64,000 nt of DNA. Source: Rhea pennata. Taxonomy: Eukaryota > Chordata > Aves > Rheiformes > Rheidae. The notes under the pieces are model-generated. The model saw only the letters and a program-made list of their open reading frames with translations, did not search any database and was not told the origin of the DNA. Positions 21,701 to 64,000 of the stretch are shown in pieces (within the stretch, counting starts at the first letter, position 1; the number at the start of each line of letters is the position of its first letter). The DNA is taken from positions 28,508,567-28,572,566 of the forward strand of contig NC_084669.1 in the NCBI RefSeq assembly GCF_028389875.1. The letters are read 5' to 3'. The position numbers were made by a program, and so were the translations under genes.

Positions 21701-22687
21701 AGTAATGTGAATCTTTCTAACTGTCATCCCATGTTTTTGCTCCTTTTAGCTCTAGTTCTGCAAAAATAACCTCCTTCTATTTCATAGAACAACCGACTTG
21801 TCAACTCTCAGAGTATGCGGTTCTAGTGTAGCCTTGAGAAAGCCCTGAAGATAATGAAGTGAAAAACATGTAACTGAGAAAAGAATTTTATGAATGGCTA
21901 CTACTGATGCTGCTGATTCTCTAGACAGATATGACTGATAACTTGTCTTAACCTTAGACCTCTCATGAAATATTCTCATCAGTTCTTTTTACTTGCTCAC
22001 CTTCTCTTTTCCTGCATGTATCTGCTTTTCTGCCCCTCCTCTCATCTTGTATTGTTTATATCCTTTGGGCTATTTAAGACACATTACCCTTTCTTTTTGT
22101 TTTATTTAAATTTTTTACTCCTTCCATTTCTCCATCTATTTCTACTGATGTCTTATTTATATTATAATTATAAACAACTGAGAATGGGCTCTGCATGGAT
22201 AAATGGTATCTGTAGAAATGAGAAAATATGTTTGAGCTAGTAGCTTCCACATAAACCACTTCAGAACTATCACAGTGGACAGGGAAGGAAGGGGACAGGT
22301 TAGCTTTAAAACCAGGTCATCCTTACTGCACTTGCAAAACAATCATGTTTCCAGTGGTAGTAGTACAGATTTGGACTTACTCACTCATACTGTATCACTG
22401 TTTCGGTTAACCCTTAGGCAACTTGTTTTAGGTAAAGAAGAGAAGGTATGAAGACACCTCTACTTGATTAGAATCACAGTCTGGAAAACCATTGCTTAAA
22501 CTAAGTAATTTGGCTTCCTGATCACAACTTTCAAATGCAAATGGCTTGATTTTTAAGGAACATACATTTACTTACTAAACCATAAAAAATCCATTACTAT
22601 TAAAGGACACAAACTCATGCTTACTATATTATGGAAGCCCTCACAGGGACACCTTTGAAGGTTTTCTGATTTCTGATTTGCTGGTGG

Positions 22688-36000: not shown

Positions 36001-36178
36001 CATGAAAGTTTTTGCCCAAGATAAAATCCACCTTTTGTTCTTCATCCAAGATTCTCCTGTAATTATGAATCCAGTGTGCCAGGTACTCTATTGGGTCTGC
36101 TGGCCGACGTTCTACAACCTCTGCTAGTCCCTTTACTAAGCAACTTCCGAGACATCTCTTCAGGTACTGAGATTCCAT
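32982..36178 (-). CDS. DYDC1: DPY30 domain-containing protein 1, 4 coding exons
   Basis: DYDC1 is linked in mammals to axonemal radial spokes and acrosome formation in sperm. Coding exons are 36178-36032, 35920-35798, 33998-33906 and 33086-32982, all in phase 0, giving 155 aa if the last exon runs to its TAG. Residues 1-45 form the DPY-30 dimerisation motif, with [14 protein letters not shown] and [16 protein letters not shown]. Residues 50-120 are highly charged and Glu/Lys/Gln-rich, a long coiled coil. The end carries [14 protein letters not shown], which matches the C-terminal motif of human DYDC1 and separates it from DYDC2. Human DYDC1 is 177 aa, so one short terminal exon may be missing: GAG|GTAAAT at 32994 could be a donor. 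MAT1A lies downstream on the same strand, as in human. Confidence 0.9.
33087..33905 (-). other. DYDC1: DYDC1 intron between coding exons 3 and 4
   Basis: AT-rich, with no element recognised. Confidence 0.85.
33906..33998 (-). CDS. DYDC1: DYDC1 coding exon 3 (coiled coil)
   Basis: Encodes [19 protein letters not shown] through WLLQQKNQE, 31 residues. It follows a good pyrimidine tract and CTGCAG, and its donor is GAG|GTTTAA. Confidence 0.87.
33999..35797 (-). other. DYDC1: DYDC1 intron between coding exons 2 and 3
   Basis: Holds A24 at 34143-34166 and A23 at 34730-34752. No other element was recognised. Mammalian DYDC1 has more coiled-coil residues than found here, so a small exon could be hidden in this intron, but none was seen. 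Confidence 0.8.
35798..35920 (-). CDS. DYDC1: DYDC1 coding exon 2 (coiled coil)
   Basis: Encodes [20 protein letters not shown] through QQKLEEERQ, 41 residues, matching the charged helix of mammalian DYDC1. It is flanked by AATAG and CAG|GTTAAT. Confidence 0.9.
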
Positions 36179-38285: not shown

Positions 38286-39109
38286 AGAAAACATTCTCAG
38301 AATTTTAGCATAAGGAACCTCGGCTAAAACTGAGCAAGGATTTTGTAGCCAAGTACAGGTTATCTTTTTAAATAGAGCTGTGATGCCACATGCTTAAAAT
38401 TAGGTTTTCTGCATTAAAGCTGACTGATCTTTTCTCCTAATTGACAAACTTCTTGGCTGATGTTCATTCACCTACTTGGCCAGTTATTTGTTTTACTGAT
38501 AACTTTTAACCAGGTAATAAAAAGAGCTCAAATAACTTGCAGTTTATAAAACAAAGTGTCTGTCCTGTTACTTCTGAAGCTTAATTGTATGAGCATTATC
38601 TTGAAGTTTTTCCCTAGCAACATTTTCCAGAATGAAAGACTGCATCAGAATAATGAAGAATACCTTCCAAAAATTGTTTTTAACAGCTGTAAGAAGCTGG
38701 CTTTGGTATTTCTTATATAATACATAATAGACATAAAAGATATACTAGGAACAGATGTAGCCATAAAACAATTTACTATTAAAGCATAATTGTACTGTAG
38801 AAATTTATAAGGAGGAAGGCTGTGATCTGGATAAAGTACAATTCAGTGAAGTATTGAGAAAAAAGCTTGAGATTCTGATAGCATGCAACAACTCTCACAG
38901 TCAAACTTACAAAACTTCCTCTGTTCTGCAACATCTAATTGAGAATTCAGTTTTGGTAATTTATTACCTTTACATAGCACCCTTTCAACAGCATACATGC
39001 CAGAGCAGTGTAACTTTAGAATTCTTTAAAATTAACACCAATGCCAAATGGTATTTCCTGACGTGATCTGACATGCAAGTCGCAGTATCTTTTCCTTTGG
39101 CCAGACGAT
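38286..39109. other. Spacer between the two CpG islands
   Basis: AT-rich sequence between the DYDC1 and EXOSC3 islands. No gene, exon or repeat was recognised. Confidence 0.8.
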
Positions 39110-39542
39110 GTCGCCGCTGCTCAACAAACAAGTGTCACAAGCCTGCATTACAGCCGCAGCCGCCCTGGCAGAGCCTACCTCCTCCTCATCACTCCCAACT
39201 TTCTAATTTAAGAGTTTAGCAACACTTACACGAGCGGCTGCCACACATTTAGGAAGCACGCTCCGAACACTCTCGCGCAGGGGCAGCTACGCCTTACAGC
39301 GAGCGAAAACAGCCGAGTGCCGCGACGGAGCTGCTCCCTCCCGGCGCTTCCCAGGGCGCCCGGTAACGGGCAGTTCCCGGGGGCCCGCAGGCTCTCCTGG
39401 GAGCCCCTCACAGCGCCAGGCCTGCGGGCCCGGGGCTGCTCTCCGGTCCTGAGGAAGGCGATGGGCAGAGGCAGCGCGGAGCCGAACCGACCCCCGCGGC
39501 CTCTCAAACCGCCCGCGCACCTCGGCGCTCGCCCCGCCCCGC

Positions 39543-39580
39543 TGCGCATGCGCCGCCGCCCCCGCGCATGCGCATGCGCG
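39543..39580. promoter_or_regulatory. EXOSC3: Three clustered NRF1-type sites
   Basis: One GCGCATGCGC core sits at 39544-39553 and two overlapping cores at 39564-39579. They end 16 bases before the chosen start codon. The consensus of nuclear respiratory factor 1 is TGCGCATGCGCA. Confidence 0.75.
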
Positions 39581-39595
39581 AGGAGGGCGCCGGCG

Positions 39596-42587
<2,992 letters not shown>

Positions 42588-49800: not shown

Positions 49801-50329
49801 CTTGCTTGATGCCTTGATGCCGGGGCGCTGGAAGGCCAGCTGCCAGATTGTTAGAGGTGTAACGTGCAGAAATATCATTAAGAAAAAGGTTGGGTTTTTT
49901 TGTTTTGTGCTCTCACCATGGCAACAAAAATAATGGCGCTGCAATTCTACCATTGCCAAATGTTGACAGCCAAAGCCACTGTAAAATTCAGAAGCAAGGA
50001 ATGTTGCCAGCCCACAGAATTTAAGGTTTTAATCACACGATGGTGGACAACAAAATTTGTCAATCACATGTTGCTGTCGTGATGATGTGATGATGTTTTT
50101 CATAAAATTGCTTTGTCACAGTGGCAAAGATGCATATATTTGAATGCTGGGTTTCAAAACAGTGAGAAAGCCATTTCAGTATATTATGTTTAGTGTTTAT
50201 AAAAAGCATTCTCGCACTAGGTAAGGAGACAGCTAAACTGGGGATAGTGTTTTCTTTCCTCTGTTCTTTATATTTCCCAGGAGAAAAATAAAGCGATTAT
50301 TGGCAAGAAAAGATCCCAGATCTCTTCCC
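43808..50329. other. Gene-free stretch between EXOSC3 and PRXL2A
   Basis: About 6.5 kb of AT-rich sequence without an exon I can support. Open frames up to 112 codons occur (48676-49014) but match nothing known and lack splice or promoter context. A short CCATGGCAAC, the same core as in EXOSC3 intron 1, lies at 49916-49925. Confidence 0.7.
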
Positions 50330-51520
50330 TGCAACCGCTTGAAACCGTGCTGTTCCGACGGGCGTTGAGCGCGCCCCTGACGGGATGCAGCGGGGCTGCT
50401 GGTCGGGGTGGCTGGCCAGCCTCTGCGGTACGGCCTTGGGCACTGTCTGGTGACGTTTTCTGGTGAATTCAGCAAAATCCTCACTAGATCGCAGCCCCGA
50501 GTGGCGGCGGCCTCGGGTTAGGTGAGAGCTTATGAGATTCTGCAAGAAATTAAGCTTTGTGCTGAAGATAAATGCGCGCGCCCTTAGGAGAAGCTGTAAG
50601 TACAGGGTAAACTAGGCAGGTCTAATCTGGGCGCGTGCTCTGGGTGGCTGGAGGACGCTGACAAAAGCAGCTTGTCCGGGGCTCGGCTCGCGGAGCCTCC
50701 AGCAGCGGGACGTCGGCGAGGTCTGTTCTCCCGCACGCCAGCCCGTGTTACCGGCCAGCAGTACCGCGTCAGTGGGAGTCCCGGGGTAGCCAGGACGAGT
50801 CCTTGGAGCACCCGACTGGAGCGGTGCCGAATGCCACGAGCAACCGGAAAGCGCGTTTGTTACGCGGTGTTGTGGCATGTTACTGGCTGGTGTATCCGAG
50901 CAAGTATATTCTTGCACATAATAGATACGTGCTTTTAAGCGCCTGCCGTTAATCACGCTCGCTGCCTGAGCGATAAACTCCCTGCGCTCCTGGACGGCAG
51001 CCAGGAGGTTCCCGCTGCCCTCAGCACACCTCAGCGCAGCGCCCGGAGCGCCGTGCTTCTCCGCGGGGCCGGAGCCGGCGAAGTTGCAGCGCGGCGCGAA
51101 CGGGCGCCGCGGCGGCTCAGCGGGCACCCGGGCACCGTCGCTGCGGCTGCGCGGCGGCGGCGGCGGCGCGGAGCCCGGGGCGCTGCAGGGGGCGCCCGGC
51201 GGGCGCGGAGCCTGCGCGGGGCGGGGCCGGCGGCGGCGGCGGCGGCGGCGCGGGCGCGGCGCGCTGTGAGTGCGGGTGCGGGGGGCGGCGCGCCGTGAGT
51301 GCGGGCGCGGGCGCGGGCGCGGGCGCGGTGCCGGCCCCGGGGCGCGGGCGCTGCCGGCGGCCGGGCCGGGCCGGGCCGGGCCGGGCCGCGCCGCCGTGCG
51401 CTGCGCTGCGCTGCGGTGGCCGCCGGCCTTTGCCCGTCCGCAGCGATGCTTGCGTCGCTGTGGCTCTGCGGCTTGTGCCGTCCTCGCTTCGTCCCGCCCG
51501 CGTTGCAGCTCGACCTGAAA
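50330..51520 (+). promoter_or_regulatory. PRXL2A: CpG island 1, probable upstream promoter of PRXL2A
   Basis: CpG-rich from about 50330, very dense from 50990 to 51520. It has two strong plus-strand donors, CGCT|GTGAGTGCGG (GT at 51266) and CGCC|GTGAGTGCGG (GT at 51295), suited to a non-coding first exon. The dense part holds short GC repeats: (GCGGGC)n at 51301-51327 and (CCGGG)5 at 51361-51385. No ATG-containing frame joins well to the PRXL2A coding exons, so this would be a UTR exon. It could instead serve an unrecognised transcript on either strand. Confidence 0.55.
51301..51415. repeat. GC-rich short tandem repeats
   Basis: (GCGGGC)n, then (CCGGG)5 and (CTGCG)3 follow one another in the CpG island. 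They would be hard to sequence and probably vary in length. Confidence 0.8.
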
Positions 51521-51548
51521 GTTAAATTAGGAGCAAGGCACAGGAATC

Positions 51549-51575
51549 AAAAAAAAAAAAAAAAAAAAAAAAAAA
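51549..51575. repeat. A27 homopolymer
   Basis: A run just past the CpG island, followed by a second short A run. Confidence 0.93.
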
Positions 51576-53809
51576 CCAAAAAAAACCACTCGATTCGAGC
51601 TTGACTCCGGAGCAGTTGCTCCTGGCTGTCAGCAGGAGAGAGCGTTTGCTGCATTGGCCGTGGGGCAGTTGTGTGGCTTTTGGGGGCAGGACTCGTGAAC
51701 GGTGACTGGCGTTATTAGTGTCCTCGCATAAGGACTTCTGCGGTTTTGTACTTCCATGCTTCCTCCCGTGTGCGTGGTATTTCCAGTTTTCTGATTGAGC
51801 AGAGGTTTAAATTTTCCCAGATACAAGATCTAGCTGCTTTTTCCCTCTGAAAACACGTACAGAGTCAGAGGGTTGCCTGAGTTTTGTGCAAGAGCTCTTT
51901 GCTTTCCCTTGCTCAGAAGGAAGGGGCAGTTGCAATGTTGGGTTTCTTTAAAACATTTTCAAAAAGAGGCAGATGAGGCGCTTTAACACAAACTTCCTTC
52001 ATCCTTTCAAAGGAAGGAGTATGGTTTGTTTGCTTGACACAGCAGCTTTCACTTGAGGTAGAGCTGGGCACAATATTGCACAGAGTTAAGTAACGAAACA
52101 AATGCAGACTTGGAACAAAACCAGAACAGATGGCTATGGCTTTTGATACAAGGAATGATTCGCTACAGAATTTACAGTTTAGATTTTACAATGACAAAAA
52201 AGAAGAAAAAGGGGGGAAAAATCCTTCATGCTCTGAAAACTACTTACATTCATGGCTTCAAAAATGCTAGGAGACTTTTGAACTGGTGTACTGATTTTGG
52301 TGTTCGTGGGGTGACTGGGGTTGGGAGGGAGCGCTGAAGGCTCCCTAGTCCCACCTTCACTTAAAGCAGGACCAACTTTGAGGTTAGATCAGGATATTGG
52401 ATTTCATCATCCTGAAGGGTGTGTAAAGCCTCATCAAACCTTGTGCATGTCACTAAATCATTGTGAATTGTAAATATTCTTTCTAAGAGATTTACAAAGA
52501 TATTTGTAATCTGATGACTCATTTCGGGGGGGATAGCTCATAAAAAATAATCAGCTCAGGTTGTGTTTTGGGTGTGCAAGTCGGGACAAAGCTCTCGAAG
52601 ACTTTTAGGCTCAATAAGGAATGTCTTGGGAAAGCTGGAAGAGGGAGGGGAGAGAAGCGAAGGGGAAGCAATGGTCAGAACCACCTGATGGACGGAAATT
52701 TCAGACTGGGGGATACATGCTGGTGCCATCCAGTGTGCAAAGGTGCCCACTGACTGCTTCCACTTTTGCTCAACAGCATTTGTAGGAAAAGTATGTAAGT
52801 AACTGCGTGTGCTACAGTGGCTTTGATTGACACTCAAAAAAACAGACTTCCCAGCATTTGTTTTGACATAGCTGCGATGTCTCCTGTTTACACTGATAAA
52901 ATAAATGTTTAAGGATAGCTATCCTTTTAATTACATTTTTTCTCTAGTTGTGGGTAGGAGAGAAATGAGACATCTACAAAAACATGTTTTTATTGATCTT
53001 GACATAAAGTGAAGACCACTAAATGACATTTGCAGAAGAATTAAGACTAAGCTTTTTAGTTACTGGTTTGCTGAGTACTGACAAACTATGAAACAACTCA
53101 CTCCCATCTTGGGCTCTTGTGTCACCACAAAAGGATGTTTTCCCTATTGTTGATCACTTGATTTTTTTTTTTTCATTGCAGCTTATTCTCTGTAAAGAGA
53201 AGTGCTCGCTTTTGCTCACTTTTGGAGGTTTGAAGGAGTGGGGATTTTAGCAGAGTTGAGAACTTGTAAATCTGGTAGATCCAAAGAAAATAATGCCCTT
53301 TAGTGAAGGGATGTTATCAGTAAAGCTGGTAGCGTAGCATATAAACACTGGGTTAATTCAAACAGCCTTCCAGCAGTACAGCTCTCTAATTTGAAACTTT
53401 TCCCCCACATTGTGATGGCTTCTTAATTGTTTCCAGGATTGCGTACATTGTTTTTGCATGCACTGCTGCGGAGGTTAGAAGTAGCATGGAGGAAACACAG
53501 GGAAAATATTTATTATAAAAATGTGCATTTCTACAAAAAAAAAAAAAAAAAAAAAAACCCACAGATCTTAAGGTTTGGTGCTGTGTTCTCAGCTTCATGA
53601 ATGTTTTCCGTAGTCCCTGCTCCTTGTATCTCCTTTCTTGGAGCACAAAGAGGGTAACTATGTGTTTAATTAAAAAAAAAAAAAAAAAAAAAAAAAGTTG
53701 ACTAATTAAGATACCTTTAAAACAAACCTGCTGTGGATTGGGCAGCTGCCGGTTCACAACGCCCCTGTGGGGAGACCGTGGCACATATTGCTCAAATATG
53801 CTGCAAGCC
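51576..53809. other. Spacer between the two PRXL2A CpG islands
   Basis: No gene recognised. It contains A runs at 53535-53557 and 53672-53696. If CpG island 1 is used, this is intron 1 of that transcript. Confidence 0.7.
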
Positions 53810-56859: not shown

Positions 56860-57039
56860 AAATGTCCTTCCTGCCTGACATCGGGCTCTTCACTATGGGC
56901 ATGTGGTCTGTTGGCCTTGGAGCCATTGGTGCAGCTGTAACAGGGATCATCCTTGCTAACACTGACTTGTTTTTGTCCAAGCCAGAAAAGGCTACACTGG
57001 AGTTTTTAGAGGAGATAGAGCTAAAAACTTTGGTACCAG
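56860..57039 (+). CDS. PRXL2A: PRXL2A coding exon 1
   Basis: After CTTTCCAG the exon begins with AA and the ATG at 56862-56864. It encodes MSFLPDIGLFTMGMWSVG, the hydrophobic segment, LSKPEKATLEFLEEIELKTL and VP, ending in phase 1 before GTAAGA. Confidence 0.95.
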
Positions 57040-58608
57040 GTAAGATTCTGTGCATTTGAGCCCTCATTCTTTGATTGGGTTTATTTAAGAACCTTTGTAA
57101 GACTAGGATTGGAAACTCTGAAGAAGAGTGAAGTGTGTTCAGAAGGGTTAAGTTTCCCTACATGAGGGTTACCTATAAGGGAGACAGAATTTCATGCAGA
57201 CCATACTGTCTGTCTCAAGGATTTTTCTTAGTCTTTCCCAGTTACAGGAAGTAGATGGGTGTCCTTGATAGGAGATGTTTCTGGTAAAGGAAAAGCCATT
57301 ACAACTGTTATTTCTGGAAGGTCCTTGTTTTAAATAAAAATAGAATACAGTTGTGAAACTTGACACACACCTAGAAGTCAATAAAGCATTTAGTACTCCG
57401 TTACGCATATAAAAATTTCTCTGATAGAACTTTATTTGAATGTGGAATTCTCTGCAATGCTTTGTTTTCGTCCTTAAAGCATTAATCACTGTAAGCAAGA
57501 GTGGCTGGTATTACTGTTCATGCTGTTTGTCCTGTATAAACAGAACAAAGAACATTCAAGGCTGGTGAACTATGGAAGAAGAATGGTGCAGTGATCATGG
57601 CTGTGCGAAGACCTGGATGATTTTTGTGCAGAGAGGTACTTGATGGGTTTGGGGATTAATTAGGAAGAGTTGAGCCCTACTTACATAGTTCCCCTTTAGA
57701 TAAAGGCAGGGGGTAAATAGAACAGTCATCAAATATATCTGAAGCATCTGAAAGATCTTGTTTCCCAGCCCAAACTGGATTCCAGCTAACAACATATTTA
57801 GTTTAAGTTTTCTTTGCAGCTGGCCTAGGTTCTGAGCATTTTCCTACTGAAGGCAATTGGTATCTGATTTTTACATCTGCCAGGAATTTTTACATCTGCC
57901 CATAATAATTTGGGATGGAGACTACACAATTCCAATTGGTGGTGAGTCAAGTGAGCTAGTTGTATTCCATATGTTCAAAATAAAACTCTGTGAGCCAGGT
58001 AGTTTTTGGTCAAAAGGAGCCCAAAATTGGACTGGCAGAAATCCATCAGACAAAGCTCATCAGCAAAACTCTGCAGAGAGGTGAGCATAAAGTGGAGTCC
58101 ATCACTCTTCGGATGTTAGATGGGAGGCAGGAATGTAAAGAGTCAGAAGACAAGGAGAATGTGTTACAGAAACTCACTGATTCTTCCCAGTCTCTGCGAA
58201 GTGTTACTACTCCATCCCAAGGCAAGTTGGGAAACAAAGTTTGATCCTTAAGTTGGTATTGGGTTTCTTGAGTGTAGGTGGGAAGAGAGACTTAAAATAT
58301 GATTTGAATGTAAAATATTCCTGGAAACAGCCATAACTTGCACCTTGCCCCCCCCCCCCCTTTTTTTTAGTTACTGGGAAGAATAGCTATTATCTTATTA
58401 TTCACTACTCTGTAATATTAAATAATTAATACTGCCATCACTTAAGTGATCTGTTCCCATCAGTAATAATACCTTAAGTATGTGTAAAACCCATGGAAGG
58501 TGAAAGATTAAACTTCTCTGCTTATTTGAACAGGTATAGCATAGGTAAGAAGAGAATGTGCTACCTACCAGTCTGACTGCCTTCTGGATGCAGTCAGACA
58601 GGAATCCA

Positions 58609-58644
<36 letters not shown>

Positions 58645-61600
58645 TGCTAGCTTCCTAAGTAATAGTAAAGAGTCTATTTGAATGAAATATTTCTTTCAGG
58701 AAAAAAAACGGAGAGGAAGAAATTTAATTTTTAGGATTTTATTTCTGGTTCAAAACCAAGTATTTAACAGAGACAGTTACTCTGCTGCTCAGCTAGTTAT
58801 GACAAAGAATTGTTGTGTATTTTAATGGTGAAAATGTTTAAAAAGCTTTTAAAATGTCTAAACTGAAGTTATTGGATTGTTAAATGCTCAAACATTTTCG
58901 TGAGTTGACTCTTTCCCCTTATCCAAGGAGTAGTCACCTTTTATTGTCCATTAGTGTTTCTCTGCAGTAGGAGAGCTGCTCCTATCCCAGCTATCACTGG
59001 TTCTGAGCGGGTAGAATGCTTCAATACAGGTGACTGAGTATGTCTGTCAATCTGTGGGCAGTAGGTTTTTGTTTTTCCACAAAAGACAAAGTACACTCGG
59101 TTCGCACTATCTTACACCTTGGAAAGGATACTGAACTTTGTCTTTATCGAAAGCACCAAGAAAGTATATGTACTTCCCTGGCCACAGTGATGGGGTTGAA
59201 AAGTGGCCATTTTACCTCATAGACCACAAAGCTGTTATTGATGGTAGGGAGGTTTCCATTATCCACTGCAAAGGATGTCATAAGTCCTAGTAAAATGACT
59301 GCTTTGCACCATTGAAAATCAAGGCCTGTAGATTTAAGAAATATGGAGTCTTTTATCTTTATCTTCTGTATCCTAAATCATCAGATTTCTTTTTTTTTTT
59401 TTTCTTTTTTTTTTTTTTTTTAATTACTTAAGATTAGTCCTGTTGAATACAAACTCCTATTTCTCAGTTTGGATCCAGCCATGTAGTGATCCAGTACTCT
59501 AGCCATTGTGAAAATGCTGTGGACTTGTCAGATATTGTAGGTGAAACTAAGCTCAAGCAGTCTAATGTAGCAGAAGAACCACAATTGACTTGTGAAAGGG
59601 ACAAACTGAGCTGGGAATTGTTCTTTTGTGTTGTGCCTGCCTTCGTGGAGAAAGTAAATATTCTGCTAGGGTATTCTGCTAGTAAGTATTCTGCTTGTTT
59701 GTTTTTTACAAAAGCAAGAAAAACAAACAGTTTCACTTGACTAGATGAAAGGGTCAGAGCCCTCTTTTACCAATCTTAATGAGAAAGCAAGTAACTGTAC
59801 AGCTGTTACTGTGTGCAAGAATTTGCCCACCAAAAGAGATTGCTTTGCTTTCTGTTACTGTATCATTTTAAAATAGCAGTAAAGAAAAACAAGTTAGATG
59901 TAGTCTCAGGATGCTCTTTGAAGTATGATCTCTTGAGGATTTTAAATGCAAGTGTGCTCTTCCTTCATTCCTGCTTTCTCTCCTCCTAAAAGCCAAGAGA
60001 GAAGACACAAACACTCCCTTCCCTCACTGCCCCATCAAACTGCTGGAATGCCTTTTTCCAAAAGGCTAATCAAGGTTAGATGGTATCCCTGTCTCTGGAG
60101 AGCTTTCTGGTCTTACAGAGGACCCACAGCACTAGCCTGTAGCACCCTTTCCCAGACATGTAGGCTGTCACAATACATTTTTTTTTCTAATTGATTATTA
60201 GAGTTCTGAACTATAAAAAAAATCCAGGATAAAATTGCAGTTAAAACCTATTAAAGAAGATCATAAAGCATTTTTTTCAGGGAAAACCAAAAATAATTAG
60301 CAGATATGACATAAGCAGAAAGGAAAGGAAAGATCTAATAAGCTATGAGCCTTGAAGACTCTCATTTTCACTACTCACTGGTTGCTTATGATGCTGATTC
60401 ATCCTTTTCTGTTTCCTCTAGAAAAGATCATCAGTATTGGAATCCTTCTTTTACCTTTTTCACCTATTGATGTCTTTTTCTAATATCTTTTCTCTTACTC
60501 GTTAGCCCTGTGTGTGTGCTACTGTTACTCAGCAAATTTTAGATACCTAGCAAGCCTTTGTTAAGGCATTTTTTTCAGTTATCTGACTGGGAGCATTCAT
60601 GTAAACTGTGTCCTTTTTTGTGTGTCTGTGGAGTTCTTTGTGGGAATTTCATCCAGAAAAAGTGACCTGTCTCTATATAAGGTGAGAAGAAACACATTTA
60701 CCATGGACACTCTTTGATTTTTTGGAAATTTCACAGGCCTCTTGCTCTGTACAAACTGGGTCAGTTATGTTTCCTTCAGGAGAACAAAAAAGTGAACAGC
60801 TGAATGGTGATGCTTTGTATGCATACACACCAGAAAAGCTGTATTGTTTCTGGGATACAGAAGATGTGTAAAGAAATTCTTTGATCATTTTCACTGAGCG
60901 AGCTTGGAAGGGAAATGCATCTTCAGTCCTTTATCTATTCTAAATTTGTGTAGCGTGCTCTGGCATAGAGCCCTCAAAGTGCTTTCAAAGAAGGCTAATA
61001 AGGATGCATTTCTACTTGGAAAAAAAGGATGTGAAATTCTGGCCTGGCAAAATTAAATGATATGCAGGCAGTATCTTTCATTGTCTTGTAAACACTTAAA
61101 AGCTGTTGAAGTCCCAGCACAGGCAAGGTAAATCTAAAGCTTTGAATTAAAACTACGTTTTCTCCAGGATTTTACTAGTATCAAGTAAATGCTCAAAAAT
61201 TCTTCTTCCTCTTTGCCTAGTGAAGACAATTCTAGAAACAGAGCTAGCTTGAGTATCTGATTTACAGACCTATTTCTGTTTTGCACCTCAAACTAGAATT
61301 TACATATATTTCTGACACTCAGAAATTCAAGATGAAGCTTGTTAACCTCTATTCATTGCCTGAAATGTTTTAGGGTTTTGTTTTTTCTTTTTTTCCCCTT
61401 TCTTAGGAGGCTTCTGAGCTTTCCTCTCTAAAACCTCAGCTGTCCAAGCTGGGTGTCCCTCTTTATGCTGTTGTGAAAGAGAAGATAGGGACTGAAGTGG
61501 AGGATTTTCAGCATTATTTCAAAGGAGAAATCTTTCTGGATGAAAAGGTATAATGAAGTCAGTCTTTTATCTCTTTTTGTTTAAAAAAAAAAAAAAAAGC

Positions 61601-63011
61601 TTACAGATGTTCTCTTTAAAGAGCTTCTATTAGTATAGATAGAGTGTGGTCTGAATAGAAAAGGATTTAGTAACATTGTAGTTTAGTAAGTTAATAAGCT
61701 TTGCTTTTCTATATATATCATACTCAGCTTACAAGCTGTTCTCTAGCTGTGTGTTGATAACATGTTGTTGCAGGATTATTCTTCCCCTCCCCTTTAATAG
61801 GTAAACAGTATGTCCTCTTAATATTTATTCCTTGCTTCCACTGGCTGTGTGACTTGCTGATGCTTATGATGTGTAAGCCAAGGTCTAAAGATGGAATGCA
61901 TAATTAATTCATCATGTACAGCCCAAATTGCAGTGATTGTGGCTTGTCCCAGCACACAGGCATATGCTGTACTGCCAGTCTCATGTCCTACAAAACCTTG
62001 GGTCTGCTTCACTCCTGAAATCAGAAGGGAGGTTTAGAAATTGTTCGTCATCTGAAAGAAGAGGAATATCTAATATTCAACTAATATTCAAAAGCAACTG
62101 GAAAGAACTTTTGTTTTCCTTCCCCACACGTTTGAAAGAAGTAGGACGACTTAAAAAAAAAAAAAAAAAGGAAAAAAAAAAGGGCTGATAGTTGCAAGAC
62201 TTGGCACCACAGTATCTCTTTACCAGCATTTTTACTGCCATGCCATTCTTCAGCAAAGCCATTTATACCAAAGCACCTTTGTTATCAGCAGCATGGATGT
62301 AGATGTATACAATACTAAGATACCTGTGGATTGGTTGAAAAAAACGTATGAATGGTGGCAATAACGTCAGTGTAGAAAGTAAGGCTCTGGCTGTGTGGAA
62401 AGTAAGTTATGCTGTAATGTGTAACAGAGATCAGTTCAGGTGCAGTTTATTTTCAGCTCTCTGCCTATTCAGCTTTTCTGTGTTGGAACCCTTCTTGGAT
62501 ATAGGTTTGGATGGTTGAATTTAATTTGGGAGGAAAAGTTCTTTTAATTTGCTTTGCTTGTTTGTTTGCTTGCTAAGATTTTTTTCTTTCACTGCAGAAA
62601 AGCTTCTATGGTCCTCGCAGACGAAAAATGATGATGTCAGGCTTCTTCCGCTTTGGAGTGTGGCAGAATTTCTTTCGTGCTTGGAAAAATGGATTTAGTG
62701 GTAACCTGGAAGGAGAAGGATTCACGCTGGGAGGAGTGTATGTGATTGGGGCAGAAAGACAGGTACTGCAGGCCTTTTAGAAGGCTTTCATGTTTCCTGA
62801 GAGACTAAAGGCTTTTTTTGTGGAGTTGTTCAGTTGATGATCATTTGAACTCCTTCTGCTGTGCAGAGACTAGGATCAGTGTATGAATTTCCTTCTTTTT
62901 GTCTCTGATTAGGGTGTTCTACTGGAGCATCGTGAGAAGGAATTTGGAGACAAAGTCAGCCTTCCCTCTGTTCTTGAAGCTGCTGAGAAGATAAAACCAC
63001 AAGCTTCATAA
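56862..63011 (+). CDS. PRXL2A: Peroxiredoxin-like 2A, selenoprotein U, 5 coding exons with in-frame UGA = Sec
   Basis: PRXL2A (FAM213A, PAMM, SelU) is a thioredoxin-fold redox protein. Coding exons are 56862-57039, 57544-57635, 61407-61547, 62598-62762 and 62913-63011, giving 224 aa. Residues 9-31 form a hydrophobic, probably membrane or signal segment (GMWSVGLGAIGAAVTGIILA). The active site is R-R-P-G-U-F-L-C (residues 81-88): codon 85, TGA at 57618-57620, lies exactly where mammals have the first Cys of CxxC. Downstream, GVPLYAVVKEKIGTEVEDF, FFRFGVWQNFFRAW and LLEHREKEFGDKVSLPS match the family to the end, so the TGA is not a terminator. The 3' UTR holds a SECIS. The gene is complete; its 5' non-coding exon(s) are probably in the CpG islands upstream. 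Confidence 0.97.
57040..57543 (+). other. PRXL2A: PRXL2A intron between coding exons 1 and 2
   Basis: No element recognised. Confidence 0.9.
57544..57635 (+). CDS. PRXL2A: PRXL2A coding exon 2 with the selenocysteine codon
   Basis: Encodes EQRTFKAGELWKKNGAVIMA, VRRPG, then TGA (57618-57620) and FLCRE. The acceptor is TAAACAG and the donor GAG|GTACTT. Simple gene prediction would stop at the TGA and lose the rest of the protein. Confidence 0.96.
57618..57620 (+). other. PRXL2A: UGA selenocysteine codon (Sec85) of the UxxC motif
   Basis: In-frame TGA between GGA (Gly) and TTT (Phe). The reading frame continues with conserved family sequence across this exon and three more exons, and a SECIS lies in the 3' UTR. 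Confidence 0.95.
57636..61406 (+). other. PRXL2A: PRXL2A intron between coding exons 2 and 3
   Basis: 3.8 kb. It holds a short direct duplication of TTTTTACATCTGCC (about 57869-57900), a C10 run near 58350, T30 at 58613-58642 and interrupted T runs at 59391-59421. Two open frames of about 84 codons (57990-58244, 59486-59740) have no known homolog that I recognise. Confidence 0.85.
58613..58642. repeat. T30 homopolymer
   Basis: Uninterrupted T run in a PRXL2A intron. Confidence 0.95.
61407..61547 (+). CDS. PRXL2A: PRXL2A coding exon 3
   Basis: 47 codons, EASELSSLKPQLSKLGVPLY to FKGEIFLDEK, flanked by TTTCTTAG and AAG|GTATAA. Confidence 0.97.
61548..62597 (+). other. PRXL2A: PRXL2A intron between coding exons 3 and 4
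   Basis: Contains A runs near 61582-61598 and 62152-62180. No exon recognised. Confidence 0.88.
62598..62762 (+). CDS. PRXL2A: PRXL2A coding exon 4
   Basis: 55 codons, KSFYGPRRRKMMMSGFFRFG to GGVYVIGAERQ, flanked by CTGCAG and CAG|GTACTG. Confidence 0.97.
62913..63011 (+). CDS. PRXL2A: PRXL2A coding exon 5 (stop codon)
   Basis: Encodes GVLLEHREKEFGDKVSLPS then VLEAAEKIKPQAS and TAA at 63009-63011. The acceptor is GATTAG. Confidence 0.97.
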   Translation, partial: GVLLEHREKEFGDKVSLPSVLEAAEKIKPQAS

Positions 63012-63229
63012 GCTTAAAAATAGTTGCACATGTTTCTGATCACAGCTTGAAATGTAGAATGTATCTGTTTCTTGAGCATGCAGTTTAATTGCTTCTTAAC
63101 TATTTAGTGATCAATGCAGTGGAAAGATTCTCCATCAAATGTAATAATTAATGAAAGGAAAACCCTTCTGAATTTTTTTGTTATTTTATCACCCTTCAGG
63201 TGGTCAGAGTTTCAACTTGTCTTTTGGAT

Positions 63230-63290
63230 CTGACTGTATTAATGAAAGGCTGGGTCTAAAATCTGACGTAGCCTAGATGTTTTCAGTCAG
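63230..63290 (+). promoter_or_regulatory. PRXL2A: SECIS element in the PRXL2A 3' UTR
   Basis: Lower helix CTGACTG (63230-63236) pairs perfectly with CAGTCAG (63284-63290). The core is ATGA (63242-63245) opposite AGAT (63275-63278), giving the U-U, G-A, A-G, A-A quartet. The upper helix AGGCTGGGTC (63247-63256) pairs with GACGTAGCCT (63265-63274), with one G-G mismatch and one G-U pair. The apical loop carries AAAA at 63258-63261. All hallmarks of a eukaryotic SECIS are present in order; it lies about 220 bases past the stop. It recruits SBP2 and the Sec-specific elongation factor. Confidence 0.93.
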
Positions 63291-63375
63291 AGACGGTCAG
63301 TTGAAACCTGTCTATCTAGGGGAGCAAAACCCTGCTAAGGCTGGAGTAACCAAGTATTAACTGAGGTTGAAGGAT

Positions 63376-63381
63376 AATAAA
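63376..63381 (+). terminator. PRXL2A: PRXL2A poly(A) signal
   Basis: AATAAA about 85 bases after the SECIS, followed by a GT-rich stretch. Cleavage near 63395-63410 keeps the SECIS in the mRNA. Confidence 0.75.
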
Positions 63382-63409
63382 AATGTATGTAAGTGAAATG
63401 TTGTCACTT

Positions 63410-64000
63410 TTCACTTGTTCGTGAACGTGTAAACACATCTGTGTCTCTAGGAAACTAAGTTCTGTCAGCCTAGATTATTCTGAGATTCTGCATTTGAGAC
63501 ATTGCCACTGTTATCAACTCAGTAAGTTTCCTGGTAGTTAACTTCTAGCTCTGGGTCTTTCAGTTCTTTGTGTGATTCTCTGTAAGGAAGATTAAAGACA
63601 TCTAATGTTGACTCTCAAAGTTAATTGTGATATCAGGGCAAGTTCCTTCTTGTAGTTAAGATTCTAAAAGCAAAGGGAACAATATGAGAGAGCACATGAG
63701 GTAGTGTTTCCATCCTAGCTTAATTTCTGTAATAGAATGGCTGGGGTGTTGCTTCTAGAAACAGATGAAGTATTGCACAATAGATCCTTGAGAACAATTA
63801 CTAGACATAGCCAGATAAATACTTAGATTGAAGGGTTAAAATTGTTAGTAAAAACATTCGAGGACAGCTTGAGTTTTCCAGATGTGCTGACATTTCAAAG
63901 TCTAAACACAATGTTAAAATTGTTCCTGTTAAATTGGGGCAGATTATCAAGTGACCCAGCAGACCCGTCAGCAGCTGAAGTATATAAAAGGCTAGGTATC
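63410..64000. other. Sequence past the PRXL2A 3' end
   Basis: No gene or repeat recognised up to the window edge. In human the next gene is TSPAN14, which is not reached here. Confidence 0.7.

Follow-up and report, generated by a model that had tools for sequence, protein, structure and literature searches.

The window (the whole stretch of Rhea pennata DNA that was analyzed, 64,000 nucleotides at C7:28508567-28572566 of a 1.27-Gb assembly in 180 contigs) contains a PRXL2A gene together with genes that resemble MAT1A and DYDC. At the left end of the window, three minus-strand segments (687 to 812, 1523 to 1669, and 2142 to 2342) match S-AdoMet_synt_C and are MAT1A-like; the first two contain stop codons in the stretch that was read, as an exon-by-exon reading can give. 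A Dpy-30 match at 36056 to 36178, also on the minus strand, belongs to a DYDC-like gene. The gene order on human chromosome 10 is likewise MAT1A-DYDC-PRXL2A, and the rhea PRXL2A gene has the orthologous position beside DYDC and MAT1A. The PRXL2A reading frame of 224 codons is obtained by splicing five exons between positions 56862 and 63011 of the plus strand (Table 1). All four introns have GT..AG borders, and the frame is interrupted by one internal stop codon. Two islands of the window, 39001 to 40000 (G+C fraction of 0.705) and 50001 to 52000 (0.523 to 0.654), are G+C rich compared with roughly 0.3 to 0.46 elsewhere. These islands are likely to be promoters, and a 5' exon of PRXL2A may lie within the second of them.

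Table 1. Features of the rhea PRXL2A locus (positions within the window)
Feature	Positions	Strand	Basis
Coding exon with start codon	56862-57039	+	Reading frame, GT donor
Coding exon bearing the UGA	57544-57635	+	AG/GT borders, frame
In-frame TGA, codon 85	57618-57620	+	Frame; faces the first Cys of the CxxC motif of prostamide/PGF synthase 9us9
SRE-like hairpin	57630-57635 joined to 61407-61429	+	Folding of spliced RNA; 5' arm begins in the UGA exon
Coding exon	61407-61547	+	Pfam AhpC-TSA_2, 33.6 bits; folding; turkey forward primer at 61440
Coding exon	62598-62762	+	Pfam AhpC-TSA_2, 29.6 bits; turkey reverse primer at 62611-62630
Last coding part	62913-63011	+	Frame; stop TAA at 63009-63011
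SECIS	63229-63291	+	Rfam SECIS_1, fold stability, strict rule
AATAAA poly(A) signal	63376-63381	+	Sole AATAAA/ATTAAA between the stop codon and 63591

The spliced PRXL2A protein, with X at position 85, matches Pfam AhpC-TSA_2 with a score of 79.7 bits (E = 2.7e-22; cut-off, 27). When the genome was searched with the same model, the matches were two exons of PRXL2A and one additional match on C61 (locus L010). The C61 match is not a retrocopy of PRXL2A, as tblastn of the protein gave nothing at E ≤ 10 and blastn of the spliced mRNA gave only chance matches of 15 to 19 bases. The open stretches at this locus resemble exons of a different Prx-like-2 gene, probably PRXL2C. A scan of viral contigs with one PRXL2A exon found no relative.

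Two solved chains match the protein, with E values of 2.5e-13 and 4.9e-12, and both are of prostamide/prostaglandin F synthase; six further solved chains with E values of 0.066 to 0.99 were not counted as relatives. Residue 85 lies opposite the first Cys of the sequence GCVVCR in 9us9 (both Cys residues of the motif are Ser in 9usa), which places the UGA at the first position of a CxxC redox motif. The synthase in 9us9 (PRXL2B/SelU3, a prostamide reductase by its name and according to PMC3473315) is a homologue (E = 2.5e-13) with its redox motif in the same place, but it has Cys where rhea PRXL2A has a Sec codon. After the UGA, the frame is open throughout the remainder of that exon and three more exons. 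The frame and the 9us9 alignment thus uphold the original prediction that an in-frame TGA replaces the first Cys of the CxxC motif and is followed by four exon segments in which the frame is kept, these being the rest of the UGA exon and the three exons after it. We consider it most likely that this TGA is read as selenocysteine. One alternative is that codon 85 is a real stop codon, or that a Cys codon was misassembled as TGA, in which case the gene would encode an 84-residue fragment or a Cys-containing protein, and the hairpin in the 3' UTR described below would be a chance fold or a relic. In favor of this alternative, TGA is one base removed from TGC and TGT, but the open frame and the splice sites kept past the UGA argue against it.

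Eukaryotic SECIS elements have an ATGA/NGAN quartet, two helices, and an unpaired AA in the apical loop, and the element that we find in the 3' UTR of PRXL2A has all of these. Its lower helix (63229 to 63236 paired with 63284 to 63291) is 8 bp long, its quartet is formed by ATGA at 63242 to 63245 and AGAT at 63275 to 63278, its upper helix has 10 positions (9 standard pairs plus a single G-G mismatch), and its 8-nt apical loop (63257 to 63264) has AAAA within it. This is the fold that had been proposed from the sequence, with the same quartet, 10-position upper helix, and AAAA loop, except that the lower helix has 8 bp rather than 7. A 96-nt stretch containing the element has a folding energy of -30.3 kcal/mol, compared with a mean of -20.07 kcal/mol for shuffled sequences (z = -3.15), and only 2 of 200 shuffles were as stable. 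We also searched with a strict SECIS rule, which was written after the element had been seen. On the plus strand of the window this rule has one match, the PRXL2A element itself (-14.3 kcal/mol; 8-bp helix I), and on the minus strand it has one match, at 22388 to 22349 (-4.8 kcal/mol; 9-bp helix I). Thirty simulated 64-kb strands gave 8 matches, none of which combined -8 kcal/mol with a 7-bp helix I. The lack of any SECIS-like fold as strong as this one in the simulated strands argues against a chance fold behind a real stop codon.

The Rfam score of the element would favor a chance fold, since it is under the curated cut-off. Rfam SECIS_1 (RF00031) matches the element over the full length of the model and is the best among the 9 matches listed for positions 62900 to 63700. 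The score is 25.2 bits, and the E value, calculated for 801 bases and 4,227 families, is 0.019. The gathering score of this family is 35 bits, which is a curated threshold and not a defining trait of SECIS elements, and a search of the whole window at the gathering level consequently lists nothing. As controls, we used the glutathione peroxidase (GPx) loci of the same genome, for which there were 11 matches at six places; 10 loci were scanned for SECIS_1 at E values up to 1 (L019 was omitted because L015 covers the same place on C5). At four places (C5, C27, C12, and C14) the GPx match includes a TGA, and three of them have a SECIS_1 match, with scores of 28.9, 35.1, and 26.8 bits, and only one of these reaches 35. 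No SECIS_1 match was found at C12 within the stretch scanned, nor at either of the two places that have no TGA (C61 and C8). The PRXL2A score is slightly under that of the weakest of the three GPx matches. The original prediction had put forward the SECIS score as a check; with Rfam, the PRXL2A element is below the cut-off of 35 bits, but two of the three SECIS matches at GPx loci also fall short of it. The Rfam cut-off therefore misses likely SECIS elements in this genome (that of PRXL2A and two of the three at GPx loci), which matters for annotation.

The AATAAA poly(A) signal begins 98 nt past the SECIS core, and the weak variant AATGAA occurs before it, at 63150 and 63241. Based on these signals and on the 3' end of the turkey mRNA (see below), we conclude that the PRXL2A mRNA very probably reaches the SECIS, and that an mRNA ending before it, which had been named as an outcome that would speak against the element, is unlikely.

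The arrangement of the rhea gene closely follows that of turkey SELU/FAM213A (KR528576), for which Sunde et al. give the UGA and the SECIS in their Table 2 (PMC4466519). Both species have an in-frame UGA and a SECIS of 37 nt in the 3' UTR, and the distance from UGA to SECIS is 648 nt in the turkey (PMC4466519) and 653 nt in the rhea. The complete 3' end of the turkey mRNA is reported 135 nt past the SECIS (PMC4466519), which compares with the rhea AATAAA beginning 98 nt past it. The turkey reverse transcription-PCR primers (PMC4466519) can be placed on the rhea sequence, the forward primer at 61440 with 1 of 20 bases mismatched and the reverse primer at 62611 to 62630 with 3 of 20 mismatched, and the spliced rhea product would be 108 + 33 = 141 bp, the size given for the turkey amplicon. 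By the published coordinates (PMC4466519), the turkey protein has 143 residues after Sec, in contrast to 139 in the rhea with its stop codon at 63009 to 63011, so it is possible that the rhea C terminus ends earlier or that there is an indel in between. The presence of a UGA and a SECIS at matching places in a turkey cDNA (PMC4466519) is further evidence against a real stop codon or a misassembled Cys codon in the rhea, and we regard that alternative as very improbable. We conclude that the locus is almost certainly the bird orthologue of PRXL2A/SELENOU (selenoprotein U1), with UGA85 recoded as selenocysteine by means of the 3' UTR SECIS.

Other published accounts of SelU1 are consistent with this conclusion. 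Table 1 of PMC3316567 lists birds with Sec-containing SelU1, PMC3473315 describes SelU1 as Sec-containing in fishes, birds, and reptiles, and PMC2397514 states that in mammals except the platypus the Sec of SelU1 is replaced by Cys. By the statements of these papers, rather than by sequence, SelU1 of birds, reptiles, fish, and the platypus has the same Sec form as in the rhea (PMC3316567, PMC3473315, PMC2397514). Selenoprotein U has also been used in work on the chicken and the turkey (PMC6680911, PMC5708738, PMC3965025). The assertion made with the original prediction that Sec-containing SelU is known in birds and fish agrees with PMC3316567 (for birds) and PMC3473315. Its second assertion, that naming both the codon and the element explicitly is a novelty, is not upheld for this kind of arrangement, because both are given for the turkey (Table 2 of PMC4466519). 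The rhea UGA/SECIS arrangement is real, correctly interpreted, and already known biology; it is not new, since the same layout has been published for the turkey and other birds.

From what is established for selenoprotein synthesis, a ribosome arriving at UGA codon 85 would be met by SECISBP2 and EEFSEC with Sec-tRNA, recruited by the 3' UTR SECIS, and selenocysteine would be inserted at this codon. The predicted product is a peroxiredoxin-like-2 protein of 224 residues that has a thioredoxin fold and the redox motif U-x-x-C. Three exon junctions follow the UGA, at +15, +156, and +321 nt, which suggests that mRNA in which the UGA is not recoded would be exposed to nonsense-mediated decay under selenium shortage. 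A model of eukaryotic SelB domain III (EEFSEC-type) has an uninterrupted match in the genome with 160.7 bits. In the assembly, tRNA-Sec was not found with two sequence patterns, nor with Rfam RF01852, for which 53 of 56,579 candidates were scored and 23 matches were listed. These RF01852 matches were rejected as tRNA-Sec, since ARAGORN calls tRNA-Ser in all 6 of the loci examined among the 23 listed. The first turkey assembly is likewise reported to be without the tRNA-Sec gene, which was located in a gap (PMC4466519). Based on the patterns used, the share of candidates scored, and the turkey gap, we interpret the missing tRNA-Sec as a limit of the assembly or of the search rather than as absence of the gene. 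Among the matches listed, 15 of one tRNA-Ser-type sequence are found at C10:24893906-25013059, spaced at about 5.95 kb or multiples of this. At L007, the one C10 locus that was checked, tRNA-Cys and tRNA-Gln occur as well, and this region is probably a tandem tRNA array.

In the spliced RNA, the segment from +10 to +38 after the UGA forms a 12-bp hairpin (-16.1 kcal/mol) whose 5' arm contains the exon junction 57635|61407, located behind +15. Before splicing, the RNA adopts a different fold here, with -17.8 kcal/mol over 81 nt. Nowhere in the PRXL2A coding sequence does a window of 42 nt exceed the hairpin region in stability. A stable stem-loop is thus present just 3' of the Sec UGA, as in a selenocysteine redefinition element (SRE). 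To judge the stability of the region against its coding content, we compared it with several sets of randomized sequences. Synonymous permutations were as stable in 30, 14, 17, and 14 per 1,000 cases for segments of 45, 60, 75, and 90 nt, respectively; uniformly drawn synonymous sequences were as stable in 75 of 5,000 cases, and dinucleotide shuffles in 10 of 200. Other results speak against an SRE. When the coding sequence was permuted, 57 of 300 sequences had an equally stable 42-nt window at any position, and the window of greatest stability started at most 12 nt from the UGA in 34 of 300. The unspliced RNA can also fold. Of three GPx UGA contexts of the same genome (the C12 match was left out), one (L022, a genomic stretch that probably runs into an intron) is stabler than the PRXL2A hairpin, with -18.3 kcal/mol, and the two others have -11.3 and -1.8 kcal/mol. 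It is possible that the PRXL2A hairpin past the UGA resembles an SRE, and there is modest support for this.

A hairpin in this position also bears on whether UGA85 might be passed by ordinary readthrough, in which a near-cognate tRNA would decode it with the help of the adjacent structure and no Sec would be inserted. Structures of this type can stimulate readthrough (a general statement in PMC8704476), and the 12-bp hairpin starting 10 nt past UGA85 would be one of them. However, the 3' UTR has a SECIS, the UGA is at the redox position of the protein, and the family has Sec status in birds (PMC4466519, PMC3473315), which together make readthrough without Sec insertion extremely improbable. 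With UGA85 as a selenocysteine codon, the closest parallels to the hairpin are the SREs described for SELENON and SELENOT (PMC8704476). As described there, these are RNA structures close behind the Sec UGA, like that of rhea PRXL2A; the candidate stem of the rhea differs in being assembled across an exon junction. Among the papers surveyed by title and opening of the abstract, none reports an SRE for SELENOU, which is weak evidence of novelty. Splicing might create an SRE in bird SELENOU, so that the local signal favoring Sec over termination would be present only in spliced mRNA; in mammals, where Sec was lost, the stretch would then have been freed from this constraint. We think this scenario rather unlikely, however.

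The rhea has kept the Sec form of SelU1, which PMC2397514 describes as replaced by Cys in mammals other than the platypus. If the hairpin behind UGA85 proves to be conserved, SELENOU would join the few genes that have a local recoding element.
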